DNA of 64,000 nt from Phoenix dactylifera (lineage: Eukaryota; Streptophyta; Magnoliopsida; Arecales; Arecaceae): contig NW_024067908.1 in assembly GCF_009389715.1 (NCBI RefSeq), forward strand, positions 124,001 to 188,000. Reading direction: 5' to 3'. Under the pieces are notes generated by a model. It ran no database searches. It saw only the letters and a list, made by a program, of their open reading frames with translations, and was not told the DNA's origin. Of the stretch, positions 15,401 to 58,000 are shown piece by piece. Each line of letters begins with the position of its first letter. The stretch's first letter is position 1. Position numbers and translations under genes: made by a program.

Positions 15401-18400
15401 AATTTCCTTGCTTATCTTTAGCATATCTAATGGCATATACATAAAGGACTAGCTGGTCTTAACTGCTGAGAGACAAAAGTGTTTTTTCTCTCTACTGGTC
15501 CTCGAGTACACATATCTATTACTGATCCTTTGCAAGATCAGGATGAGACCTTTCTGAATTGCTAATCCATGTTAGGTCAACATCAAGAAGAGATGGGCCG
15601 TGGTGGTCCCTTTTGGACTGCCCGGATCTCATAATTGAATACAAAGTTAGATCTACATTGGGTATCACCTGAATCCCCCCGTCTATCCTCCTGAGGATAA
15701 GTTTGGTTTCAAACTCCGATTCGAGCAGGAGTACGCCACGCTCATTTGGCGGAAAGAAAGCCTATATGGCTGGTTACCTTTTCTCAGTGTCAAGCAAGAA
15801 TGCTGGTTGAAGAGAATATTCCCGATCATCGCATAAGCTGAGCTGGGAATTCAGCATTAGATCATCGGCTAGCTGACCCCAGGGCTTTGGATATTCTGTA
15901 TCTATCAACTCACCATGTTGATGGAGTATTAAATTTAACTTTATAGCTGACAGTTTGTATATCTTTGAAGAGACATCAATTTGCTACATTGAACCTGATA
16001 TTTTCTGCAGCAGTGGAGGCTTTGGAGTTTGGAGGGATGAAAATTTTCTGATGAGCAAGTAGTCAGGAACTACAAACACATTTTTATTGTTCTCCGCAAT
16101 AATTTCTTTTTGAACTTTGAATCTGAAACCTATTGGAATCACATTAGAGGTGGAGACCTAAGAGAAGATCCTAGGATTCATGTTTTCGTTATATTCATTC
16201 TTTATGGTCTAGAACAAGGTTGGCGGAACCGTCTCAAACCACCCTGTTCGGAGCTTTCTGAGCCGTACCGGCGGCTTACCGGGATGGTTCTGGCAAAGAA
16301 ACTGAAACGCCGTCGTTGGAGAAGGAGAAGGAGAAGGAAAGAGAAGAAAAGAGAGAGCGAGCGGGGGAGGGAGGGAGAGGAAGGGAGGCCGGCGGACTTC
16401 ACTTAAGAATCATGAAAACCAGCGCCGGCCTCCTTCCTTCTCCCTCTCCCTCCCCCGCTCTCTCTCTCTTTTCTTCTCTTCCAGGTCTCCTGTGTCAATA
16501 CAGGCTTGGCATGGCATGGCATGGCGCAGGCCCGTACCGACTCATGCCATCGGGCAATCGGTACGGTGCCCGGTACCAGCACAACAGATCCTAGTCTAAC
16601 AGATCTTAGTTTATGTACTCCTAATAGTCTATAAGAGTAGTCATACTGATCTTAAAGGCAATTTTTTATTCTGTTCACTCACAGCTGTTAACACCTGTTC
16701 TTATCTCTTTAACAATTGGATCCTGATTAATGGCAATCTTTGTAGGATTAAAATAGTGGAAGTCACTTTTGACACCTGGAACCATAACTTCTAATTAAGA
16801 AATTTTTTCATATTTGATTTTTATCCTAATAATATGGCCTCCATGAGAGATGCAATATGTTTGTTCATGGTCATATATGGAAAGATTAATCTTCGTGGTG
16901 AATACTATTGCTTTTTCTGAGGTTAACATTTTGCACTGGTATCATGAATGTAGCTGTTGTTGTTTGCCTATCAACTCTTAGGGAAATGATACAGTTCATT
17001 AGCAAGATCATTTTTAACTGGGATCATAGTAGAAAACCCCTTTTGACAAACAGATACAAGCAATGAACAATTAAAATCATAATGGTCTGGTGGAGGTGCT
17101 GTGGCAGGCAAGTTACTATAGCTTGTTTGTGCAGTAATGTTAAATTCTACGGTCAACTAGTGGTAATGGGGTCTGGTGAAGGTTGACTCTAAGAAGAATT
17201 GGCTATCGCTTGGAGGAATAGACTTGTTGGATGGATTATCACTGTAGTTAATTTAATGTTTTTTTGGCTTCTGGAGGTGCTTGTTCTATCAGATTGAATA
17301 GGCAGGTCGTTGAGATTATGCATCTCATTTGTTGCCATCTCCTTCTTGAAACAACAGCTTTTGGACTCTTTTCATATCTATGTATGTGTACATTCATCCT
17401 TATATTTTATATACAGAATCCATGTGAAGTTGCCAATTCAAAAGTCTTGATGCAGATAAGAATATTAACCTTGTTGGCTTTTCATCAAGTAAATGGTGGT
17501 TTGCTAATAGTTTGGGGTGTGTATTTGTGTGCAGCTCACTGTCATTGTGTACCTGAATCACTGCTAATCAACTAGTAATGTTTCAGTGGTTGAATTTAGC
17601 AACTGACCCTTTGATACTTTTATGTCTACACTGACTCAGTTTGCTTATGCATGTTTCTTCTATGTAACAATTCTAGGATTATGTCATTCTTTAGATTTTG
17701 GCATCCATGTTATTTCTCTTTTAACATAATAAATAACAGATGCAAGATTTGCTTGATTGACTGTGAACTTACAGTAGACATTTCTAGACATTATTCTTAT
17801 CATGGCAATTCTAAAATATAGGTGAAACATGAATTGGAGTCTTGCAGAGAACAATGTGGGGTATTAAGGGAAAGATTGGTTATTTCTGAGGAAAATGCAG
17901 AAAAAGAGAGAGAGTGCAGGTTAGTCAGCTTTTAATCTGTACCTTTTGCAGGAAATGCAGCCTACATTATCTGAAATATAACCATGTAACTGGTTTTTAT
18001 ATGCACATACATTACTTGATTCAAATACTTGGCAATAATTTATTGTTACCATTTGGAACTGGCATGCATAGAATTCTGGCCATTTCCTATTATGCTTTCA
18101 GTAAAAAGTTCTGTTCTTTTTGTAATGCAAAAAAAATCATGTTCATTTTGCCAATCTGGTCTATAGCTGGTTGTAAAGATCTATTCAATCCTTCCATGGG
18201 GCATCCTCAAGTCTGACCCCATATCTTAAGGAAGGTCATGGATTTTGTGATGATCATTAGTACATGCTCTTATTTGTTCTCTGTTTAATCATAACTATTT
18301 ATGTCCGTGCTGCTACTTATTTAGATCACTCTATAGTTTTGTGGATCATCTATCAAGGAAAAGAGAACAATTCACTGAATGAAAACAGAATCAGCTTCTG

Positions 18401-21400: not shown

Positions 21401-23639
21401 CTAATTGCTTCCCAATACTGCATTTCTTTTGTCTTCAGTTGCTGAAAGCTAGAAGAGACTCAGATGAATTTGCAAGAAGGATCTCCAGTACGGAAGTCAA
21501 GATGCATACTGTGAGCTCTCTTTTTCTCTTTCATGTTGACATGTATGAAAGTGTTATGACAATAATTGTGTTAGCACAAGTAAATTAATGTTTTCTTTTC
21601 TCAGAGCACACAAGCATATTAATGTTATGTAGTCTTAGTGCACTTGTTATTTGCAGATTTGCCTGAGCGAGAATTATATTTTCCTGTTGTTTCATAATAT
21701 AACTTGAGAAGTATGAAAAGTACACCTGACAGGCTATTTTCTTTGATGTACTTCCACAACATGAAGCAGAAGTAACTAGTGATTTCCTACTCATAGTCAT
21801 TTTTTAATCTTGATCAATTTTATAGTTGATAACACTATGGATGTTTGTTTGTTATCTTTGAAATGGAGAATTTAATTTTCTTTTATTATTTTACAACATG
21901 TGTTCGTAGCTGGAATAATTTATGTTGATTTATGTATTTGTTGCATGAACGAAACTCACTAAGGGTTGCTGCTAGCTGTTAAAGAAGATTATAACTTACT
22001 GAGTAGAAATAAATTGAACTTGCTCTAGCATACCACTATAACTTGGTTGATACTCAAGACATGCCTGAGCTACTCAGGCATTCTCTGTTCTTAATTAATA
22101 GCACAAGTCTTTGTGCAGTTGCTGTTTTAGTTTTCATTGACTGATGATCCATTTATACTTTTTATCCATGTTTTCTTAGCCAACAAGTTTTGTATGGATG
22201 GCTATTGCCAATCATTTGCTTGCTTAAGTTATCATCATACATCAATATCTATACAGATATAAACAACTTATTGTAATTTAGATGTTGCATCAGAATATCA
22301 TTACAATAACTAACATATCTTAAGACATTTATTTCAGCATTTATTCCTATCAGGGACTCTGTCCTCAGATAGCATAATGTTTCTTGTGTCAGCTCACACA
22401 AATTCCATAAGTGTTTCCGTAGGTCTATCTATCCTAACGTTTCCTACCAGTATCAGCTCATTTCTTTCCCAAAGCTCCTCAATTCGTAAGTTATACATGC
22501 CCATCCTACCTCATCCAATGCTTAAGCATTTTACCCATTTAGTGGTCCAGCTTTTAAACTGTTTTGTCTCACTCGGTTTCAATTATTGAAAGAAGACCTT
22601 TATATTTTAGTCACATCCATCTCAGCAATCTTATCTTTACTGTCCTGATTTGTTATACCCTCCAACTAAGTTCGAGGAAAAGGAAAAGTAAAGATTCGTA
22701 CCTCTTTTGGCTTGTTACCAAGTGGTGCTGAGCTGTATTGACCCATGTGCTGAATGGTAAGACCGGCACTATTTTACACCAAGTAGCTCACCAGTAGTTG
22801 ATAGACCTAATGCGACTGCTGGTATTGGCCTGGCACAGGTTGATAGTTAAATCCATCTTACAAATAGCCACATTCCAAGTGTGATATGTTTCCATTTTTG
22901 AAAATATAAAGTATGCTTGAACAAATGTCCTTCATTGAATGTAACATAATACTCAAGTCATTACTTCTAACAAATTCCTAGTTCCATATCACAAAATTGA
23001 GGGTATGGATTTTATCATTTTCCCATTTGTTTAGGACAAGTTTTCTTTACTTACAAATACTGTCATATTAATCCTTTTAAATTTTATCAGCTTGTAACTG
23101 TGTACCACGTCAAACAACATGTCAAACAAATTCTATTTGTCTTTAAGGATTTCTGATGGCCATTACTTCTAACAAATTCCTAGTTCCATATCATGGAACT
23201 GAGGGTAAGGATTTTATCATTTTCCCTCCCATTTGTTTGGGACAAGTTTTCTTTACTCTACAAATATTGTCATATTAATCTTTTTAAACTTTATCAGCTT
23301 GTAACTGTGTACAACATCGAACTCACGTCAAACAAATTCTATCTGTCTTTAAGGATTTCTTATAACTGAACTATGTCAGCTAGTTTTCATGAATTCAACT
23401 CAAATTCGTATTTACAGGAAGCTTTGAACTACAATAAAGAGAGGACGAAGCTCAGAATGCGGCTTCGCTCAATGCAGGCAAAGTTAGATGCACTCCGTGT
23501 CAGGTACAATGAGGTGATGGATGAGATGGGTCTCATGAACAAGAAATTTGAAGAAGCATCCACCAAGTTAAAGAAGCAACTTGCCTCCTATGGAGTTGAA
23601 ATACTTCGCCTAAAGAAGCAGCTTTCAACTGATGACTGA
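423..23639 (+). CDS. KIN-7O: KIN-7O-like (CENP-E-like) kinesin, C-terminal coiled-coil part, 16 exons seen, 5' end outside window
   Basis: Exons with GT-AG borders: 423-505, 636-692, 955-1104, 9762-9875, 9961-10047, 10126-10329, 10423-10593, 12352-12558, 12686-12775, 12864-13001, 17822-17919, 20756-20834, 20909-21070, 21234-21353, 21439-21510, 23418-23639 (TGA 23637-23639). They encode about 680 residues of almost uninterrupted heptad-rich, Lys/Glu-rich coiled coil, as in the stalk of a CENP-E-type mitotic kinesin. No motor motif is present; the motor would lie upstream. The last exon (starting EALNYNKERTKLRMRLRSMQ) resembles the conserved C-terminus I recall for plant KIN-7O. Phases agree across the 17919/20756 junction (codon AG|C). 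The 505/636 junction does not keep frame, so a microexon or error probably lies between, and exons may be missing in the 8.7-kb intron 1105-9761. Family role: chromosome or spindle microtubule motor. Coiled-coil gene: sure; kinesin identity: moderate. Confidence 0.7.
670..787 (+). repeat. 59-bp tandem duplication across an exon-intron border
   Basis: Units 670-728 and 729-787 are near-identical. The unit contains the last 23 bases of the exon 636-692, its GT donor (693-694) and intron sequence, so a second copy of exon end plus donor (GAACAACAAGTATCTC) sits inside the intron. Confidence 0.9.
2255..5145 (-). pseudogene. hAT transposase pseudogene (BED finger, DUF659, hAT dimerisation domain)
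   Basis: Read on the minus strand from 5145. A BED-type zinc finger (GWEHGKMLNKRHQFQYNYCH, then KCFKG) is cut by TGA near 5030. A Lys/Glu-rich linker follows (4941-4330), with a frameshift near 4320. The DUF659 catalytic region (4228-3824) has MCDGWTGPTKRAIINF, VTDNGPQYKLAG and TPCAIHCIDLIL. The hAT core continues through 3733-3410. A hAT C-terminal dimerisation block with SSSGCE and STFALIHSKQRNHL at about 2960-2790 is broken by several stops. The Ser/Asp-rich tail begins VDPQQWPERN (2584-2255). The family cuts and pastes DNA with 8-bp duplications. Multiple stops and frameshifts mean this copy cannot make transposase. Confidence 0.88.
5640..5820. repeat. Subterminal palindromic repeats of the hAT element
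   Basis: The word GTGGCACTTT and its complement AAAGTGCCA recur several times, including the near-perfect palindrome GTGGCACTTTCGAAAGTGCC near 5780-5800 and related copies near 5646-5668 and 5707-5733. Subterminal arrays of this kind bind transposase in other hAT elements; that role is inferred here. Confidence 0.75.
6058..9761. other. Intron DNA of the kinesin gene, no feature identified
   Basis: AT-rich with no convincing exon. It contains a T run followed by 18 G (7912-7945) and a CT-rich stretch (8845-8915). Reading frames here are short and not conserved-looking. Confidence 0.6.
7912..7945 (+). repeat. Homopolymer T then G(18) tract
   Basis: A run of T is followed by 18 consecutive G (7928-7945). 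It could form a G-quadruplex and is a likely place for length error in assembly. Confidence 0.9.
13782..14320. mobile_element. Non-autonomous hAT element (539 bp) in kinesin intron
   Basis: The ends CATGGTCTGCCGAACC and (reverse complement) CAAGGTACGCTAAACC match the family of the 1401-6049 element. The flanking 8-mers GTGAAAAC (13774-13781) and GGGAAAAC (14321-14328) match at 7 of 8 bases. The ends are rich in ACCGGT and GTACCG; the interior is GC-rich with no transposase. Confidence 0.82.
16215..16593. mobile_element. Non-autonomous hAT-family element (379 bp) in kinesin intron
   Basis: It starts CAAGGTTGGCGGAACCG. It is the reverse complement, in diverged form, of the outer element at 54930-55637: shared parts include the GAGCCGTACCGGCGG block, the purine-rich GAGAAGG block and the GGTACCAGCACAACAG end. 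The flanking duplication is imperfect (GTCTAGAA against GTCTAACA), so the right border is approximate. Confidence 0.65.
20234..20345. mobile_element. Relic of the same GTACC-rich hAT family
   Basis: About 110 bp with CATGGCACGCCATGCC at the left, GGTAC words inside and ACTTGGTACGCTGTAATG at the right. No clear target duplication remains, so this is a degraded or truncated copy. Confidence 0.4.
22959..23361 (+). repeat. 202-bp tandem duplication just upstream of the last kinesin exon
   Basis: Copy 1 (22959-23160) and copy 2 (23161-23361) both run from CATTACTTCTAACAAATTCC to TCTTTAAGGATTTCT with scattered differences and small indels. The second copy ends 56 bp before the exon at 23418. Confidence 0.88.
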
Positions 23640-24279
23640 GTTTTGGTAGGCATCATTATATGGAAGAATAGGATCCCTAATCTTGAAGCAATCCTTATAG
23701 ACTTGTGCAAAATATTTTCGGTGGTTTTTGTCATGGCTACAAGTGGGTATAAGTGCCTGGGTAATTTTACAATATGTGCATTCTGCCAACACTAATTTTA
23801 AGCCTTGTGCTTATCAGCGTTTTGCTTGTGCATTTTCTGTTTTTTTTCCACCAGGTGTCTTTTCTATTATATGAACTATAAATATCGTCAATGTCATTCT
23901 CAAAAAGCATCTCCAGTTCAAATATTTTTCCTTGGCGGATGATTCTCCAAACTATTTTTACTCGAATAGGTTGTTCACAGACTTTCAACTACACAATTAG
24001 CATCATGAATCTCTCTGAACTTGTTCATGAAATACTTGCGGGTTGTTAGTTGATGATGCCATCTGTCCAGATGGATGTTGCTATTATTCTGTTACCGACT
24101 CTCCCTTGCCTATTCTTTGGCGAGCTTTATAATTTTGTTCTGAAAACTTCGTCCACCTCACATTGCAAAGTAATGCAACAGGGCCCAAACCTGGTCCCGA
24201 GATTTTTTTTTGGGGAACTTGCTCGGCGGTTCATTTATTGACCGAACTTTAACATTAAATCCCTGTTGACCGGTTGTTT
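23640..24279 (+). other. 3' untranslated and downstream region of the kinesin gene
   Basis: It follows the stop at 23639. AT-rich, with no further coding pattern. A convincing poly(A) signal could not be fixed. Confidence 0.45.
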
Positions 24280-24705
24280 AACAACCGGTCCATATATATT
24301 TTAACATTGCTTTATGGGACAAAAATGCCCCCGCCTCTCCCATTCCCACCGAAGAAGGAGAAGAAAAAGGCAGTCGCCGGCCACGGCCCACCCCCTCCCG
24401 CGCCTGCCGCCGGCCACAGCCCGCCCCCACCCGCACCCGCTGCCCCCTTCCGCGTCGCCGGAAATACCTCCGCCCCCACGGTGGGGAGGTGCCAAAGAAG
24501 AGGAGCCGATGCCCCCCCCCCCCCCCTCGGTGGCCCCATCCTGCGGCCGCCACCGTCCGACCCCCTTCCGTAGCTGCCGGCCTCGCGAGAGGAGAAGAAA
24601 GAAGAAAGAAGGAGAAGGGAAGAAGAGAAGAAAAAAAAAGAAAAAGAAAAGAAAAAAAAGAAAATGAAAGAAAAAGAAGAAAAGAAAATAAAATAAAAAT
24701 AAAAA

Positions 24706-27700
24706 TAAAGTTAACTGTGTTCCTAGACAAGTTAACTGTGTTCACAGACAACTTAACTGTGTTCACAGACCTGGAGTCGACCCCTTAACAGCACGAGTCG
24801 ACCTCTGCTCACCAGGAGTCGACTCTCAGGCTTTCATAGACAAGTTAACTGTGTTCACAAACAAGTTAACTGTGTTCCTAGATAACTTAACTATGTACCT
24901 AGACAACTGTGTTCCTAGACAAGTTAACTGTGTTCCCAAACAACTGAACTGTGTTCCTAGACAACTGTGTTCCTAGACAAGTTAACTGTGTTCCCAAACA
25001 ACTTAACTGTGTTCCTATACAACTGTGTTCCTAGACAAATTAACTGTGTTCCTAGACAAGTTAACTGTGTTCCCAAACAACTTAACTGTATTCTTAGATA
25101 ACTGTGTTCCTAAACAACTTAACTGTGTTCACAGACAACTTAACTGTGTTCCTAGACAACTGTGTTCCTAAACAAGTTAACTGTGTTCCTAGACAAGTTA
25201 ACTGTGTTCCCAAACAATTTAACTGTGTTCCTAAACAACTGTGTTCCTAGACAAGTTAACTGTGTTCCTAGACAACTTAACTGTGTTCCCAGACAAGTTA
25301 ACTGTGTTCCTAGACAACTTAATTGTGTTCCCAGACAAGTTAACTGTGTTCCCAAACAACTTAACTGTGTTCCTAGACAACTGTGTTCCTAGACAAATTA
25401 ACTGTGTTCCTAGACAAGTTAACTGTGTTCCCAAACAACTTAACTGTATTCTTAGATAACTGTGTTCCTAAACAACTTAACTGTGTTCACAGACAACTTA
25501 ACTGTGTTCCTAGACAACTGTGTTCCTAGACAAATTAACTGTGTTCCTAGACAAGTTAACTGTGTTCCCAAACAACTTAACTGTATTTTTAGATAACTGT
25601 GTTCCTAAACAACTTAACTGTGTTCACAGACAACTTAACTGTGTTCCTAGACAACGTGTTCCTAGACAACTTAACTGTGTTCCTAGACAAGTTAACTATG
25701 TTCCCAAACAATTTAACTGTGTTCCTAAACAACTGTGTTCCTAGACAAGTTAACTATGTTCCTAGACAAGTTAACTGTGTTCCCAAACAACTTAACTGTA
25801 TTCTTAGATAACTGTGTTCCTAAACAACTTAACTGTGTTCACAGACAACTTAACTGTGTTCCTAGACAACTGTGTTCCTAGACAAGTTAACTGTGTTCCT
25901 AGACAAGTTAACTGTGTTCCCAAACAATTTAACTGTGTTCCTAAATAACTGTGTTCCTAGACAAGTTAACTGTGTTCCTAGACAAATTAACTGTGTTCCT
26001 AGACAACTTAACTGTGTTCCTAGACAAGTTAACTGTGTTCCCAAACAACTTAACTGTGTTCCTAGACAAATTAACTGTGTTCCTAAACAAGTTAACTGTG
26101 TTTCTAAACAAGTTAACTGTGTTCCCAAACAACTTAACTGTATTATTAGATAACTGTGTTCCTAAACAACTTAACTGTGTTCACAGACAACTTAACTGTG
26201 TTCCTAGACAACCGTGTTCCTAGACAAGTTAACTGTGTTCCTAGACAAGTTAACTGTGTTCCCAAACAATTTAACTGTGTTCCTAAACAACTGTGTTCCT
26301 AGACAAGTTAACTGTGTTCCTAGACAAGTTAACTGTGTTCCCAAACAACTTAACTGTATTCTTAGATAACTGTGTTCCTAAACAACTTAACTGTGTTCAC
26401 AGACAACTTAACTGTGTTCCTAGACAACTGTGTTCCTAGACAAGTTAACTGTGTTCCTAGACAAGTTAACTGTGTTCCCAAACAATTTAACTGTGTTCCT
26501 AAACAACTGTGTTCCTAGACAAGTTAACTGTGTTCCTAGACAAATTAACTGTGTTCCTAGACAACTTAACTGTGTTCCTAGACAAGTTAACTGTGTTCCC
26601 AAACAACTTAACTGTGTTCCTAGACAACTGTGTTCCTAGACAAATTAACTGTGTTCCTAAACAAGTTAACTGTGTTCCTAGACAAGTTAACTATGTTCCC
26701 AAACAACTTAACTGTATTCTTAGATAACTGTGTTCCTAAACAACTTAACTGTGTTCACAGACAACTTAACTGTGTTCCTAGATAACTGTGTTCCTAGACA
26801 AGTTAACTGTGTTCCTAAACAAGTTAACTGTGTTCCCAAACAATTTAACTGTGTTCCTAAACAACTGTGTTCCTAGACAAGTTAACTGTGTTCCCAAATA
26901 ATTTAACTGTGTTCCTAAACAACTGTGTTCCTAGACAAGTTAACTGTGTTCCTAGACAAATTAACTGTGTTCCTAGACAACTTAACTGTGTTCCCAGACA
27001 AGTTAACTGTGTTCCCAAACAACTTAACTGTGTTCCTAGACAACTGTGTTCCTAGACAAATTAACTGTGTTCCTAGACAAGTTAACTGTGTTCCCAAACA
27101 ACTTAACTGTATTCTTAGATAACTGTGTTCCTAAACAACTTAACTGTGTTCACAGACAACTTAACTGTATTCCTAGACAACTTAACTGTGTTCCTAGACA
27201 AGTTAACTGTGTTCCCAAACAATTTAACTGTGTTCCTAAATAACTGTGTTCCTAGACAAGTTAACTGTGTTCCTAGACAAGTTAACTGTGTTCCCAAACA
27301 ACTTAACTGTATTCTTAGATAACTGTGTTCCTAAACAACTTAACTGTGTTCACAGACAACTTAACTGTGTTCCTAGACAACTGTGTTCCTAGACAAGTTA
27401 ACTGTGTTCCTAGACAAGTTAACTGTGTTCCCAAATAATTTAACTGTGTTCCTAAACAACTGTGTTCCTAGACAAGTTAACTGTGTTCCTAGACAAATTA
27501 ACTGTGTTCCTAGACAACTTAACTGTGTTTCCAGACAAGTTAACTGTGTTCCCAAACAACTTAACTGTGTTCCTAGACAACTGTGTTCCTAGACAAATTA
27601 ACTGTGTTCCTAGACAAGTTAACTGTGTTCCCAAACAACTTAACTGTATTCTTAGATAACTGTGTTCCTAAACAACTTAGCTGTGTTCACAGACAACTTA

Positions 27701-28350
27701 ACTGTGTTCCTAGACAACTGTGTTCCTAGACAACTTAACTGTGTTCCTAGACAAGTTAACTGTGTTCCCAAACAATTTAACTGTGTTCCTAAACAACTGT
27801 GTTCCTAGACAAGTTAACTGTGTTCCCAAACAATTTAACTGTGTTCCTAAACAACTGTGTTCCTAGACAAGTTAACTGTGTTCCTAGACAACTTAACTGT
27901 GTTCCCAGACAAGTTAACTGTGTTCCCAAACAACTTAACTGTGTTCCTAGACAACTGTGTTCCTAGACAAATTAACTGTCTTCCTAGACAAGTTAACTGT
28001 GTTCCCAAACAACTTAACTGTATTTTTAGATAACTGTGTTCCTAAACAACTTAACTGTGTTCACAGACAACTTAACTGTGTTCCTAGACAAGTTAACTGT
28101 GTTCCTAGACAAGTTAACTGTCTTCCCAAACAATTTAACTGTGTTCCTAAACAACTGTGTTCCTAGACAAGTTAACTGTATTCCTAGACAAATTAACTGT
28201 GTTCCTAGACAACTTAACTGTGTTCCCAGACAAGTTAACTGTGTTCCCAAACAACTTAACTGTGTTCCTAAACAACTGTGTTCCTAGACAAGTTAACTGT
28301 GTTCCTAGACAAGTTAACTGTGTTCACAGACAACTTAACTGTGTTCACAG
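24706..28350 (+). repeat. Minisatellite: 21-bp unit CTGTGTTCCTAGACAAGTTAA with 79-bp and longer higher-order structure
   Basis: About 3.6 kb of tandem units, roughly 170. Variants swap CCTAGACAA for CCCAAACAA, CCTAAACAA or CACAGACAA, and GTTAA for CTTAA, ATTAA or TTTAA. A 16-bp short unit (CTGTGTTCCTAGACAA) recurs and gives 3x21+16=79-bp blocks. A marker TATTCTTAGATAACTG recurs at irregular intervals of roughly 140-400 bp, showing larger segmental duplications. Because 21 is a multiple of 3, four of six frames stay open as heptapeptide repeats (for example CVPRQVN, FLDKLTV); these are not genes. GTCGAC-rich blocks flank the array (24774-24826, 28352-28460). Confidence 0.93.
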
Positions 28351-28835
28351 ACCTGGGGTCGACCCCTGCTCACCTGGAGTCGACTCTCTCAGGCTTTCCA
28401 GAGAGCTGTTTTTCTGCCTGATTTCAGGGGTCGACTCCAGCTCTTTAGGGGTCGACCCCAGCTCAGCATAAGTCTACAATAATTTTCTAATAACACTTAA
28501 CTGTGTGCACAGTCGAAATAACTGTGTTCTGGGGTAGAATAAGTGTGTTCTGGGATGATTTAAATATGTTCCAAGCTTATTTAACCGTGTGTCATGTTAG
28601 ATTAAGTGTGTTCCAAACTTATTTAATTGTTCCAAGCTTATTTAACTTTATTTTTATTTTTTCCTTTTTTTTCTTTTTTTTCTTTTTTTTTCTTCTCTTC
28701 TTCCCTTCTTCTTCTTCTTTTTCTTTTTTCTCCTTCCGCGAGCTGGCGGCACACAGTTAAGTTGTCTGCGAACACAGTTAACAGGACTGTGCACACAGTT
28801 AAGTGTTCTTAGAAAATTGTTGTAGAAGTGAGCGA

Positions 28836-29290
28836 GTCGACCCAAGATTCTCACGAGTCGACCCCAGCAGAGCAGGAGTCGACCCCAGTTCAAACTTTTT
28901 CTTTTCTTTTTCTTTTTTTTCTTCTCTTCTTCCCTTCTTCTTCTTTCTTCTCTTCCCGCGAGGCCGGCGGCGCCGGAAAGGGGCTGGGCCACGGCGGACG
29001 CTGGAGGAGGGCGGGCCGTGGCCGGCGACAGCCGCAGGACGCGGGACGACGCCCTTCTTCCTCTTCTTCGGCACCTTCCCATCATGGGGGCAGGGGCGGA
29101 GGCATTCCCGGCGGCGCGGCCACGGGAGGGGGCTCGGGAGGAGGCGAGCCGGGCCGCCGGCGGCCGCAGGAGGGGGCAGGCCGCGGTCGGCAGCAGCCGC
29201 GGCTGGGAGATTACAGTTTGGAAAGTCTCTGAAATTCCTCTTCTTCGGAAGGATGGGAGATCATGAGGGAAGGGGCATTTTCGGTATCTT
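28836..29290. repeat. Right inverted arm of the foldback element
   Basis: GTCGACCC-rich entry, then a pyrimidine run, then about 330 bp of very GC-rich sequence that is an inverted, diverged copy of 24305-24700. A second partial copy of the pyrimidine-run and CGCGAG junction lies at 28650-28750, so the right arm is partly duplicated. Confidence 0.7.
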
Positions 29291-29355
29291 ATTTCGAAAT
29301 AAAAGGGGCTCAGGGACCGGGAATTACAGTTTGGAAAGTTTCTGGACCGGTTGTT

Positions 29356-29766
29356 TTAGATTTAATTAACAAGTACTTTTTATTACAGTAGAGTCTTTAG
29401 AGGGATGGGAAAGTCAATTACCCTTTTTTTTTTTTTTTTTTTACTTGCATGCCATGTGACGGTATTCACACGTAACTGGCCTCTGTTTTCTTTTTTCGTT
29501 TTTTTTTTTGTGCGTTTGGGTTTTGGTGTTGTGTTGAGTCCCAAAGCATTTTCATTGAGGGAAATGGTTAAAAACCCGTCGGTAGTTTTCTCCTTGTATA
29601 TATCATGCAGAGCTGCTTTGTTTTTCCTTGTCAAAATAAAACCCTGAAAATTTCGAAAATAAAGTAACATTACAAAGTTTAATTTGCATAAATTCCTCCA
29701 TCCTCAACTCATAGACCATAGTAGTACAAAATGTATGTCAGATAATTTACGGGAACTATTTGATTT
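29356..29766. other. Intergenic, nothing recognised
   Basis: AT-rich with T runs at 29410-29442 and 29490-29508. No coding pattern. Confidence 0.6.
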
Positions 29767-55092: not shown

Positions 55093-58000
55093 TGCAAGGG
55101 AGGGAGAGAGAGGAAGAGGGAGGAGAGAAGATGGTCGGGGCCAGCCGGCGAAGGCCGGGGAGCCTCCACGCGGGGCCATCCTGCGAAGGCCGGGGAGCAT
55201 GGTATGCTGTACCGATCGGTACAGGTCGGTACCGGGCGTACCGTACCCGTACCGATGGATACCGGTATCGGTACGCCAGTGTCGGTACGCCTGACGTACC
55301 GCGTACCGTACCGTACCGACATTCGGTACGCTTATGCTAGTGCGGCGCCGGTACGGGGTTCGGTACCGGCACGGCGAACCTTGCCGGGGAGCCTCCGCCT
55401 CCTCTGCGCGGAGACTCCCCGGCCTTCGCTGGACGGTTGGCCTCTCTCCTCCTTCCTCTCCCTCCCTCCTCCGCTCTCTTTTCCTCTTTTTCCTTCTCCT
55501 TCTCCCCCTCCGGCGATGGGTCTCGGTTTCATTGCCAGAACCATCCCGGTCCACCGCCGGTACGGCTCTGGACGCCCCAACCCGGACGGTTCGGGACGCT
55601 CCGAACCGGGCAGTTCAGGATGGTTCCGCCGACTGTGGAGCATAGATTGATTTGAATAGCAGGAGAGTATGCATGTGTGCATGCACACACGATCTATGCT
55701 TGAAATCTTGGATCGCATTTTGGCATTATAAATATCAAACATCTATATCAGATATGGTATAAGCATATAGTATATACATTTTACTTTAGATCACAAACTC
55801 AAATTGGTGATTGATGCATTATCCAATTGAAAAGGAAAAAAAACTGCAGATAAATTGACTTGTGATGGCATGAGAAGTTGGATGTGTCCTCCTTGTTTAA
55901 GAACCAAGACTTCTTATGCCACTTCAATATATTTAAGAATACCATTGGAGATACGTATTCTATGCACAAGTATGCATGCACACTCAGACACAAACAACAT
56001 ATGAGCAATGATAACCATACTCTGAAACTTACTCTTCTGTTTGAAGTCAGCATATACATTGTATTAAGAACACGAACTTATCAATTGTTGATGGATGCAT
56101 TATCAATTGAGAAGAGGAAAAAACACATATAAATTGACCATCATGGCATGAGAGCGAGCATGTGCGCCCCTTGCTTAAGAACTGAAACTTTTCCGCCACA
56201 TATAGAATATTTAAGAAAATTGTTGGAGACAGAACATGGAAGGTTATAGCCTTTGTAATTATATATGTAGGGCATTTTTCCACAATAGTGGATTTTCTTG
56301 CAAACAATGCGGCCTTGCATCTACAAACTTCATGGTGTAAAGCAATAGAATTACCTTCCAAGCTTGATACAGATTCAGACTTCGTATTGGAGATTGACAA
56401 ATCTGATGTCAATTTGTGTCATTGGTTTCTACCTGTGTGACCTCAGGTCTGCATGATTTCAGTCAATGGCAACATCTACCATATAGTGGTCAAAATCTTG
56501 CAACATGATCACTGACTGGCATGAAGTATTCATGCCAGGTAGCCTACCATCCACATGACCCACTTGATTGTCATATTCCACAACAAGGAGTAAGAATCAC
56601 ATCTGTTGTGTCATATTCCACAACAATGGCAACATCCTCATCCGCCCACTACATGTTGCAACATGCACAATAGTCACTGGTTCTGCAGAAAGTGCACTAT
56701 TATGATGAAACCACATTTTGCTCAACAGCTGTTTTTGGCAACACTCTTCATAGCTTAAATGTTGGTTTGACTGAACTTCATTACATCCACATTGGTAAGC
56801 TAAATAGACAAATAATTATGCAAAATAAAGTAAAACAGCTACAGCCTTCCAGGAAATAAGTAGCCATAGGAAAGGCAAGAATTAACTTTAATTAAATTTG
56901 GTTGTCCTTTCAGGTGAAATATATATTGATCTCACTACCTCAGTCTTTATTTTCCCCTGTTTACTGTTTAATCCCACAGCCAACACCCAATCACTATAAT
57001 TTTCGCCATAAATTAAACTAGAAACTCTCAGCAATAGTCTACACATCCTACTAAAACAACTGCTCAAAAAAATAAATCTAGAAGTCGGAAGAGTCCTATC
57101 AACCAAAGTAGTAGAAGCTCCATCATGTTATTCATTTCGCTGCAGCAAAATTATCTCGGAAATTTGAGAACATATGCTCCCAGGTTTAATATCCCATATA
57201 ATATTTTGTTAAAGCTAATAGCAAACATAAACTCCTGCCCACATTCCTAGGAAATTATACTGGTCAACAATTGAGGAACACAGCTTTGGGAAGTTCCCTA
57301 TGTTGTACTTTTTTTAATCTAAACAAATCCAGATTTATCTGTCACATAGCTAAACAGGTACAGGCATATGTACGCATAGCACAGTATAATGAAGCAAATA
57401 AGAAACTATTCCCAAACAGGAGAAAATGTTTACAAAACCCATTGTTAGTATTAGCAGCACCAGTATAACAACTAAACCATATCCAAAGAGGAGAAACTAA
57501 TGTCAAACACAAAATAATGTGTGCTCTGTTCAGAAGCTATACTGGTCAATGGCTTTGTGGAGGATGTTTATGTTGTACTAATTCATATATAAACAGACCC
57601 AGGCAAATCAATTAATAATGCCAGTATAATTGAGAAACAATAAGCAAACAGGAGAAAATGTTGATTTAGGAACTTCCTGTGGTTGCATTTAGGTGAAGGC
57701 ATGCATACTACAGCTGTTCATATGTATTATATTTCTATACAGACAGAATACATTAAATACCTACAAAGTTACAATTCTTAATTTCTTATGCATGATAAGT
57801 CATATTGGAGTGTCTTACCTTAGAAGACTTAACAATTGCCCGTGCAAGGCATATAAGCTGCCGCTGACCAACTGAAAATGATGTGCCGCTTTCTTTTACA
57901 GGAAGGTCAAGTCCACCAGCTAATTCTATCTCAGCTTTAATATGGCATTTCTGAAGAGCTTCCCAGATTTTTTCATCTGTTGTCATACCAGATGGGTCTA

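Follow-up and report, generated by a model that had tools for sequence, protein, structure and literature searches.

The 64,000-nucleotide window analysed here (Phoenix dactylifera, assembly GCF_009389715.1, contig NW_024067908.1, positions 124,001 to 188,000, forward strand) contains an element of 5,212 bp at 24212-29423, which lies between 9-bp duplications (TTTTTTTTT) and is composed of two terminal regions, two GC-rich arms in inverted orientation and, between the arms, a long array of a 21-bp minisatellite with the core TTAACTGTGTTCC. In what follows it is compared with 37 other copies from the same genome and with more distant relatives, and assigned to a family of foldback Mutator-like elements (MULEs). 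Its parts are listed below in window positions, each with the observations on which it is based.

24203-24211, no strand: target-site duplication, left copy, TTTTTTTTT (flank comparison; single T9 at the empty site on C1)
24212-29423, forward: complete element, 5,212 bp, assigned as a non-autonomous foldback Mutator-like element (ends of the 38 copies, end patterns, empty site)
24212-24375, forward: left terminal region, starting GGGGAACTTGCTCGGCGG (copy ends, left-end pattern)
24376-24656, forward: left arm, GC-rich and polypurine, inverted copy of the right arm at 71% (self-alignment, shuffles)
24708-24836, forward: first 21-bp units and left GTCGAC run at 24776, 24797 and 24818 (self-alignment, motif count)
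24847-28358, forward: main array, 174 units in loose blocks of about 17 units (Tandem Repeats Finder, unit rule, autocorrelation)
28358-28456, forward: right GTCGAC runs at 28358 and 28379 and at 28430 and 28451 (motif count)
28480-28645, forward: degenerate 21-bp units resembling the array of the sibling L051 (compared by eye)
28748-28826, reverse: three inverted units of the same 21-bp repeat, cores at 28748, 28769 and 28790 (self-alignment, core matches)
28836-28883, reverse: inverted GTCGAC run at 28836, 28857 and 28878 (motif count)
28896-29191, reverse: right arm, polypyrimidine and GC-rich, inverted copy of 24376-24656 (self-alignment, shuffles)
29192-29423, forward: right terminal region, finishing GGGATGGGAAAGTCAATTACCC (copy ends, right-end pattern)
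29424-29432, no strand: target-site duplication, right copy, TTTTTTTTT (flank comparison; single T9 at the empty site)

A preliminary description of this locus, made from the letters alone, had proposed inverted GC-rich arms, GTCGAC-rich blocks and a 21-bp array nested in 79-bp blocks, and all three are recovered. The arms 24376-24656 and 28896-29191 align as inverted copies (71% identity, E 1.8e-35), and their gapped arm-to-arm score of 112.5 lies well above that of 200 block shuffles (mean 50.2, standard deviation 5.6, maximum 68). Ten GTCGAC sites are present in the window copy, grouped in four runs with a 21-bp spacing inside each, so that these blocks and the units have one common spacing. 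The main array comprises 174 units, most of them 21 bp (133) or 16 bp (39) long, with single units of 36 and 37 bp, as counted by a rule that tracks units in the longest unbroken run and undercounts broken arrays. Tandem Repeats Finder reports overlapping rows with periods of 21, 58 and 79 bp over about 24833-28352, and the strongest base-level periods are 79, 21, 58 and 100 bp, with 337 bp in eighth place. The stretch 24708-24806, which holds the first units, has a direct copy at 28290-28389 (92%). As in foldback elements, which have long inverted repeats with internal tandem repeats, units are present on both sides, very unequally in this copy (179 forward and 3 reverse core matches).

The same plan is found throughout a family. 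When the left arm was used to search its own genome (773,078,369 bases in 2,391 contigs), the best 38 of 557 candidates were scored; these are the window copy and 37 others at 87-97% identity, with nearly the whole query covered. The arms enclose the array in 38 of 38 copies, which supports the earlier suggestion of a transposon that amplified a subterminal repeat; the observations named at the outset as fatal to it, arms that cannot be aligned or arms and array found only apart, were looked for and not encountered. The elements measure 2,733-6,101 bp (middle value 4,216), and their longest unbroken runs hold 49-214 units; in L019, L027, L029, L031 and L034 the run is broken and the unit count too low, core matches there numbering 105-151. 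A left-end pattern (at most two mismatches) matches 76 places genome-wide (control 0) and a right-end pattern 107 (control 11). Of the left ends, 57 pair with a same-strand right end within 8 kb, against a single opposite-strand pairing, or 48 of 66 once a tandem cluster on C2 (10 left ends, 9 pairs) is set aside; the pairing used 76 of the 107 right-end places, mostly without the weaker two-mismatch matches, so pairs may be missed, and one of the 57 is a 178-bp remnant and some others link separate units of the C2 cluster. Three further copies (L047, L048 and L049) and an older relative that is 83% alike (L055), each read in part, have the same plan as the 38.

The edges of the element were set by the points at which copies cease to match, by the 9-bp duplications and by an empty site. 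In the 37 other copies the left limit of the match lies no more than 11 bases from 24212, and the right limit between 4 bases before and 19 bases after 29423, the overruns leading mostly into A/T runs. The description of a 5-kb foldback element stands as regards inverted arms and array and needs correcting at its ends: 24280 and 29355 are internal positions, since all 38 copies match outward to within a few bases of 24212 and 29423. The flanking 9-bp duplication is exact in 27 of the 38 copies, has one mismatch in 8 and four or five in 3; at most one mismatch is thus seen in 35 of 38 copies. Offset positions, used as a control, gave 0 of 1,862, and the 27 exact duplications are 95% A/T. The three poorly matching cases are L011, which is composite, L022 and L043, in which nine bases agree once the left junction is shifted by one base. 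When the two flanks of the window copy were joined with one duplication and searched in the same genome, one contiguous match over all 600 query bases was obtained at C1:11322094-11322674 (96%, or 98.6% without gaps), and it holds exactly one T9. The window element is therefore a real insertion that is missing from a second, nearly identical region. The family has the 8-11 bp, mostly 9-bp, target-site duplication and the terminal inverted repeats expected of MULEs, here arms that are 71% identical over about 300 bp; by eye, the extreme end GGGGAACTTGCT and the reversed GGGGAATTTACT agree at 10 of 12 positions in copies that end in CCCC, and more weakly in the window copy.

Two insertions have remnants beside them. 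At L011 (G000:C1:35799700-35806500, in window orientation, 761-946) a full element is preceded, 7 bp upstream, by a 178-bp deletion remnant in which the left 159 bp are fused to about 20 bp of the right end. The 9-bp repeat AAATAAAAA (by eye) flanks the two together, a pattern that joint movement or insertion of two elements would give. At L019 (G000:C4:6642700-6649606, in window orientation, 881-945) some 55 bp of a right end remain, followed by T9, the full element and T9, probably an insertion beside the end of an older copy.

The order of units within the arrays is shared, loosely, across the family. Lettering the units by type gives a recurring order of approximately BCEABIJDCAAKFAEGH (17 units, 337 bp), and the unit-type autocorrelation averaged over the 38 copies peaks at lag 17 (0.215, compared with 0.082 in shuffled arrays); a second set of copies, mostly with the right end AATTCCCC, shows a related unit order. 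The marker sequence that the preliminary description had used to delimit larger irregular segments is present in exact form in 37 of 38 copies and, with at most two mismatches, twelve times in the window copy, at gaps of 358, 137, 215, 342, 216, 358, 58, 337, 200, 337 and 374 bp. The word irregular was apt for this copy, and a reading of its segments as a regular 337-bp repeat was dropped; family-wide, 337 bp is the commonest gap (41 of 177), with 96 of 177 gaps at 290-360 bp, again allowing two mismatches. These 96 blocks, from 34 copies, were compared with one another (a random 35% of between-copy pairs, with pairs between L013 and L014 excluded), and identity was 97.9% within a copy (123 pairs), 97.0% between copies of one subfamily (822 pairs) and 94.7% between subfamilies (676 pairs). 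Distances between arrays track distances between arms (Mantel r 0.51 for the left arm and 0.42 for the right, p 0.0005), p-values that are indicative because the copies are related and not independent.

Change in array length can be followed at one site. L013 and L014 share a duplication and flanks (98.1% over 932 bp and 99.8% over 577 bp) as well as the first 1,520 and the last 727 bp of the element, and their arrays differ by 1,353 bp, 167 as against 99 units, a difference of 68 or 4 x 17. Whole blocks were therefore gained or lost after insertion, the two being alleles or a recent duplication; at this site the array has varied in steps of complete blocks, with no change in flanks or arms. 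Unequal exchange or slippage may have been responsible, as either would give this result.

Relatives beyond the family provide further context for its origin. L051 (G000:C2:12881900-12885600, 215-2360) is about 2.15 kb long, has the end variant GCTTAGCGG, a left arm that is 82-84% alike to that of the window family and, by eye, the 9-bp repeat TATTTTATT at both ends; its array consists of diverged 21-bp units arranged head to head and symmetrically (23 core matches in each direction), with nested periods of 42, 82, 84, 105 and 147 bp. L054 is a full-size element of 7.4 kb with TAAAAAAAA on both sides, and it shares related ends with the window element (87.5% over the right 40 bp, E 5e-6; 67% over the left 120 bp, E 0.003). 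A Pfam scan of L054 finds, in separate frames, MuDR DBD (PF03108, 8e-13), MULE (PF10551, 2e-12) and SWIM (5e-5) domains, with a PB1 match below the cut-off; the opposite strand gives an Ulp1 peptidase (4e-7) and, again below the cut-off, a plant mobile domain (3e-5); in the nine frames scanned there was no PHD finger and no domain named for an anti-silencing protein, VANC itself not having been searched for. L054 has no 21-bp array and one core-like match in 7.4 kb (null mean 0.23), and the core has no match in the sibling L052 or in the repeat unit of L050; these relatives thus do not use the 21-mer motif, and the idea that a transposase-bearing sibling carries it was not supported. A search with PF10551 (best 150 of 452 candidates) yielded no autonomous partner of the window's exact subfamily.

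Three observations on these relatives stand apart. Dozens of the 150 PF10551 places share a 394-amino-acid open frame with nearly equal scores, which suggests one recently amplified MULE or MULE-derived gene family. L050 (G000:C2:19255000-19259500, with matches over C2:19254762-19276038) forms a tandem satellite that repeats every 1,357 bp or so, with units 93-96% alike; each unit resembles a complete sibling Mutator-like element, and successive units are joined right end to left end across about 6 bp. L052 (G000:C5:10181500-10185200) measures about 1.56 kb and has the 9-bp repeat TATTTAATA (by eye); this sibling seems to derive from an internal deletion through which the beginning of a PB1-like transposase was fused to subterminal sequence.

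We therefore read the window feature, with a probability of roughly 0.85, as a copy of a recently active, non-autonomous foldback MULE family whose internal repeat has been amplified and changes in register. The family inserts with a 9-bp, A/T-rich target duplication and bears a 21-bp minisatellite between inverted arms. In the proposed model it would move by cut-and-paste, using transposase supplied by full-size MULE relatives with common termini. The simplest history starts from an ancestor that, like L051, had inverted 21-bp units in both arms; the units of one side would then have been amplified in the window's subfamily, and some 17 of them (21- and 16-mers, 337 bp) would have become a common block of amplification before the family spread.

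Several points weigh against this reading. The foldback symmetry of the window copy is partial, given 179 as against 3 core matches and arms at 71%, and no transposase gene was seen behind those of the family's own ends that were read, a set without several left ends such as C570, C522 and C1:15717448, L054 being related at the termini only. The order by 17 units holds loosely: 10 of 38 copies have their highest autocorrelation at lag 17, the window copy has its best lag at 48 (0.190) with 17 second (0.185), the string BCEABIJD is present in 18 of 38 copies, and 2 of the 11 irregular marker gaps in the window copy equal 337 bp. Distances measured on the two arms are weakly correlated (r 0.28, p 0.048). 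The 38 copies are the best matches and not a random sample, as 38 of 557 candidates were scored, and L013 and L014 could be a recent duplication, or carry assembly errors or a collapse, instead of being alleles.

The alternative that survives best, a possible though doubtful one that could be true together with the MULE reading, is that the array is a functional target, in which the 21-bp unit would bind a transposon-encoded protein and selection for many sites would drive and keep its expansion; on the analogy of known systems, the units might be extra transposase sites, as in Galileo, or sites for an anti-silencing factor, as with VANC in VANDAL elements. Both have precedents in the available text of the corresponding reports: VANC targets form tandem repeats that vary between related elements, and their motif was shown to bind VANC, the anti-silencing protein of VANDAL elements (PMC5735166), while the tandem repeats of Galileo contain extra transposase (THAP) sites (PMC3688188). 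Every one of the 38 copies retains at least 49 units by the undercounting rule, and units and GTCGAC runs are both spaced 21 bp, near two helical turns. In addition, comparison of 56 L051 units with the window consensus gives 86% agreement over the 13-bp core and 39% over the 8-bp linker, for one locus and with an anchor placed inside the core. Within the family, in contrast, constraint on core relative to linker is not significant (6/6 common versus 56/31 private changes, p 0.36), and a type-level version of the test (p 1.3e-5) was set aside because it recounts combinations of few variable sites; the near absence of the core from L054, L052 and L050 also speaks against a target. A stronger form, which we consider unlikely, holds that plant MULEs in this lineage repeatedly build a 21-bp-phased array of the conserved core as a platform recruiting an element-encoded anti-silencing or transposase protein, with selection amplifying blocks of about 17 units. 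Were it true, the array would be in effect a mobile counterpart of centromeric satellites, present at dozens of insertion sites.

A pre-existing genomic satellite that was captured by a transposon and then spread, which the preliminary description had offered as a captured satellite seed, is very improbable. The array does look like a satellite with a higher-order repeat. The exact marker, however, occurs 186 times genome-wide (control 0), with 167 occurrences inside the 38 copies. Among 100 listed marker places, 90 fall in the 38 copies and 7 in other two-ended elements, which makes 97 of 100, and the remaining 3 lie in inferred spans (one bounded by a left end alone, another a 15.5-kb interval with an end on each side). 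No free 21-mer array was found clearly outside elements among these 100 of the 186 places (9 not located), a search that used one exact marker and would miss arrays without it. For marker-holding arrays, capture of a free satellite is thus disfavoured because the marker places lie in elements, and L051, whose ends are related, holds a symmetric 21-bp-type array that has diverged from this one. As a general explanation, an error of assembly, or tandem growth by chance next to inverted sequence with no connection to it, is already refuted by the duplications and the empty site, and by a plan common to 38 of 38 separately placed copies (L013 and L014 at one site), most with 9-bp duplications, even though tandem arrays are easily misassembled, L032, L043 and L046 contain several units of 20 and 22 bp that are maybe uncorrected errors, and single array lengths may be wrong.

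The MULE family described here resembles several known elements in part. A limited search of the open-access literature, in the text available for each source, found no plant MULE whose minisatellite reaches kilobase length and has a higher-order repeat. This fits the earlier statement that no plant element of exactly this plan had been described, a statement that needs qualifying, because tandem repeats in or beside inverted repeats are already described for the animal elements Tetris, Tm1, Galileo and Rehavkus, and tandem motifs for the plant VANDAL elements. Long modular inverted repeats are also a feature of the plant foldback MULEs FARE, SoFT and Tnr8. Tetris of Drosophila virilis is, like the window family, a non-autonomous foldback element with similar duplications (8-10 bp) and variable internal tandem repeats, and its array length differs between two allelic copies (PMC4079207). 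It has 220-bp repeats in its inverted repeats, arrays that also occur apart from the element and no transposase-bearing relative found (PMC4079207), whereas the window family has 21-bp units in a loose 17-unit order and a transposase-bearing sibling, and showed no such separate repeats among the 100 listed marker places of 186. Tm1, a Mutator/Foldback group of root-knot nematodes, shares with the window family 9-bp duplications and variable tandem repeats (about 14 bp, within composite inverted repeats), some Tm1 members encode a transposase, and the group differs in having repeats in both inverted repeats and an animal host, nested order being unmentioned in the part of the account available (PMC3169594).

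Rehavkus has 9-bp duplications, a minisatellite before the 3' inverted repeat and a PHD-finger transposase, and the aphid MULE Phantom has a minisatellite after its transposase gene (PMC6446971). The window array occupies a comparable position, between left and right arm, and no PHD finger was seen in L054, the relative on which this was examined; both known elements are from animal hosts (PMC6446971), whereas the window family is non-autonomous, resides in a plant and has a relative with MuDR DBD and SWIM domains. MuTAnT of Medicago, a foldback MULE with long modular inverted repeats, resembles the window family as a plant MULE-related element with long inverted repeats and A/T-rich targets, and differs in its targeting of TA microsatellites, with no kilobase higher-order array mentioned in the text available (PMC4486113). 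VANDAL elements are likewise plant MULEs with non-coding, short-motif tandem repeats that differ between relatives; their motif was shown to bind VANC (PMC5735166), whereas the window 21-mer is a putative target.

The family adds a plant case, with kilobase arrays and a transposase-bearing relative, to a type of element that the literature covered describes mostly in animals, and in plants for VANDAL motifs. Since separately placed arrays share unit types and order, it amounts to a natural replicate experiment on the expansion, contraction and homogenisation of a higher-order repeat, of a kind that is hard to conduct at centromeres, with flanks and duplication known for each insertion, and it allows a direct test of whether arrays of this type serve as platforms for protein binding.

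Elsewhere in the window, 16230-16384 and 55451-55598 form an inverted pair (79% over 155 bp, about 39 kb apart) that perhaps represents two copies of another dispersed repeat, and a tandem duplication of about 206 bp, 89% alike, lies upstream of the element at 22959-23363.

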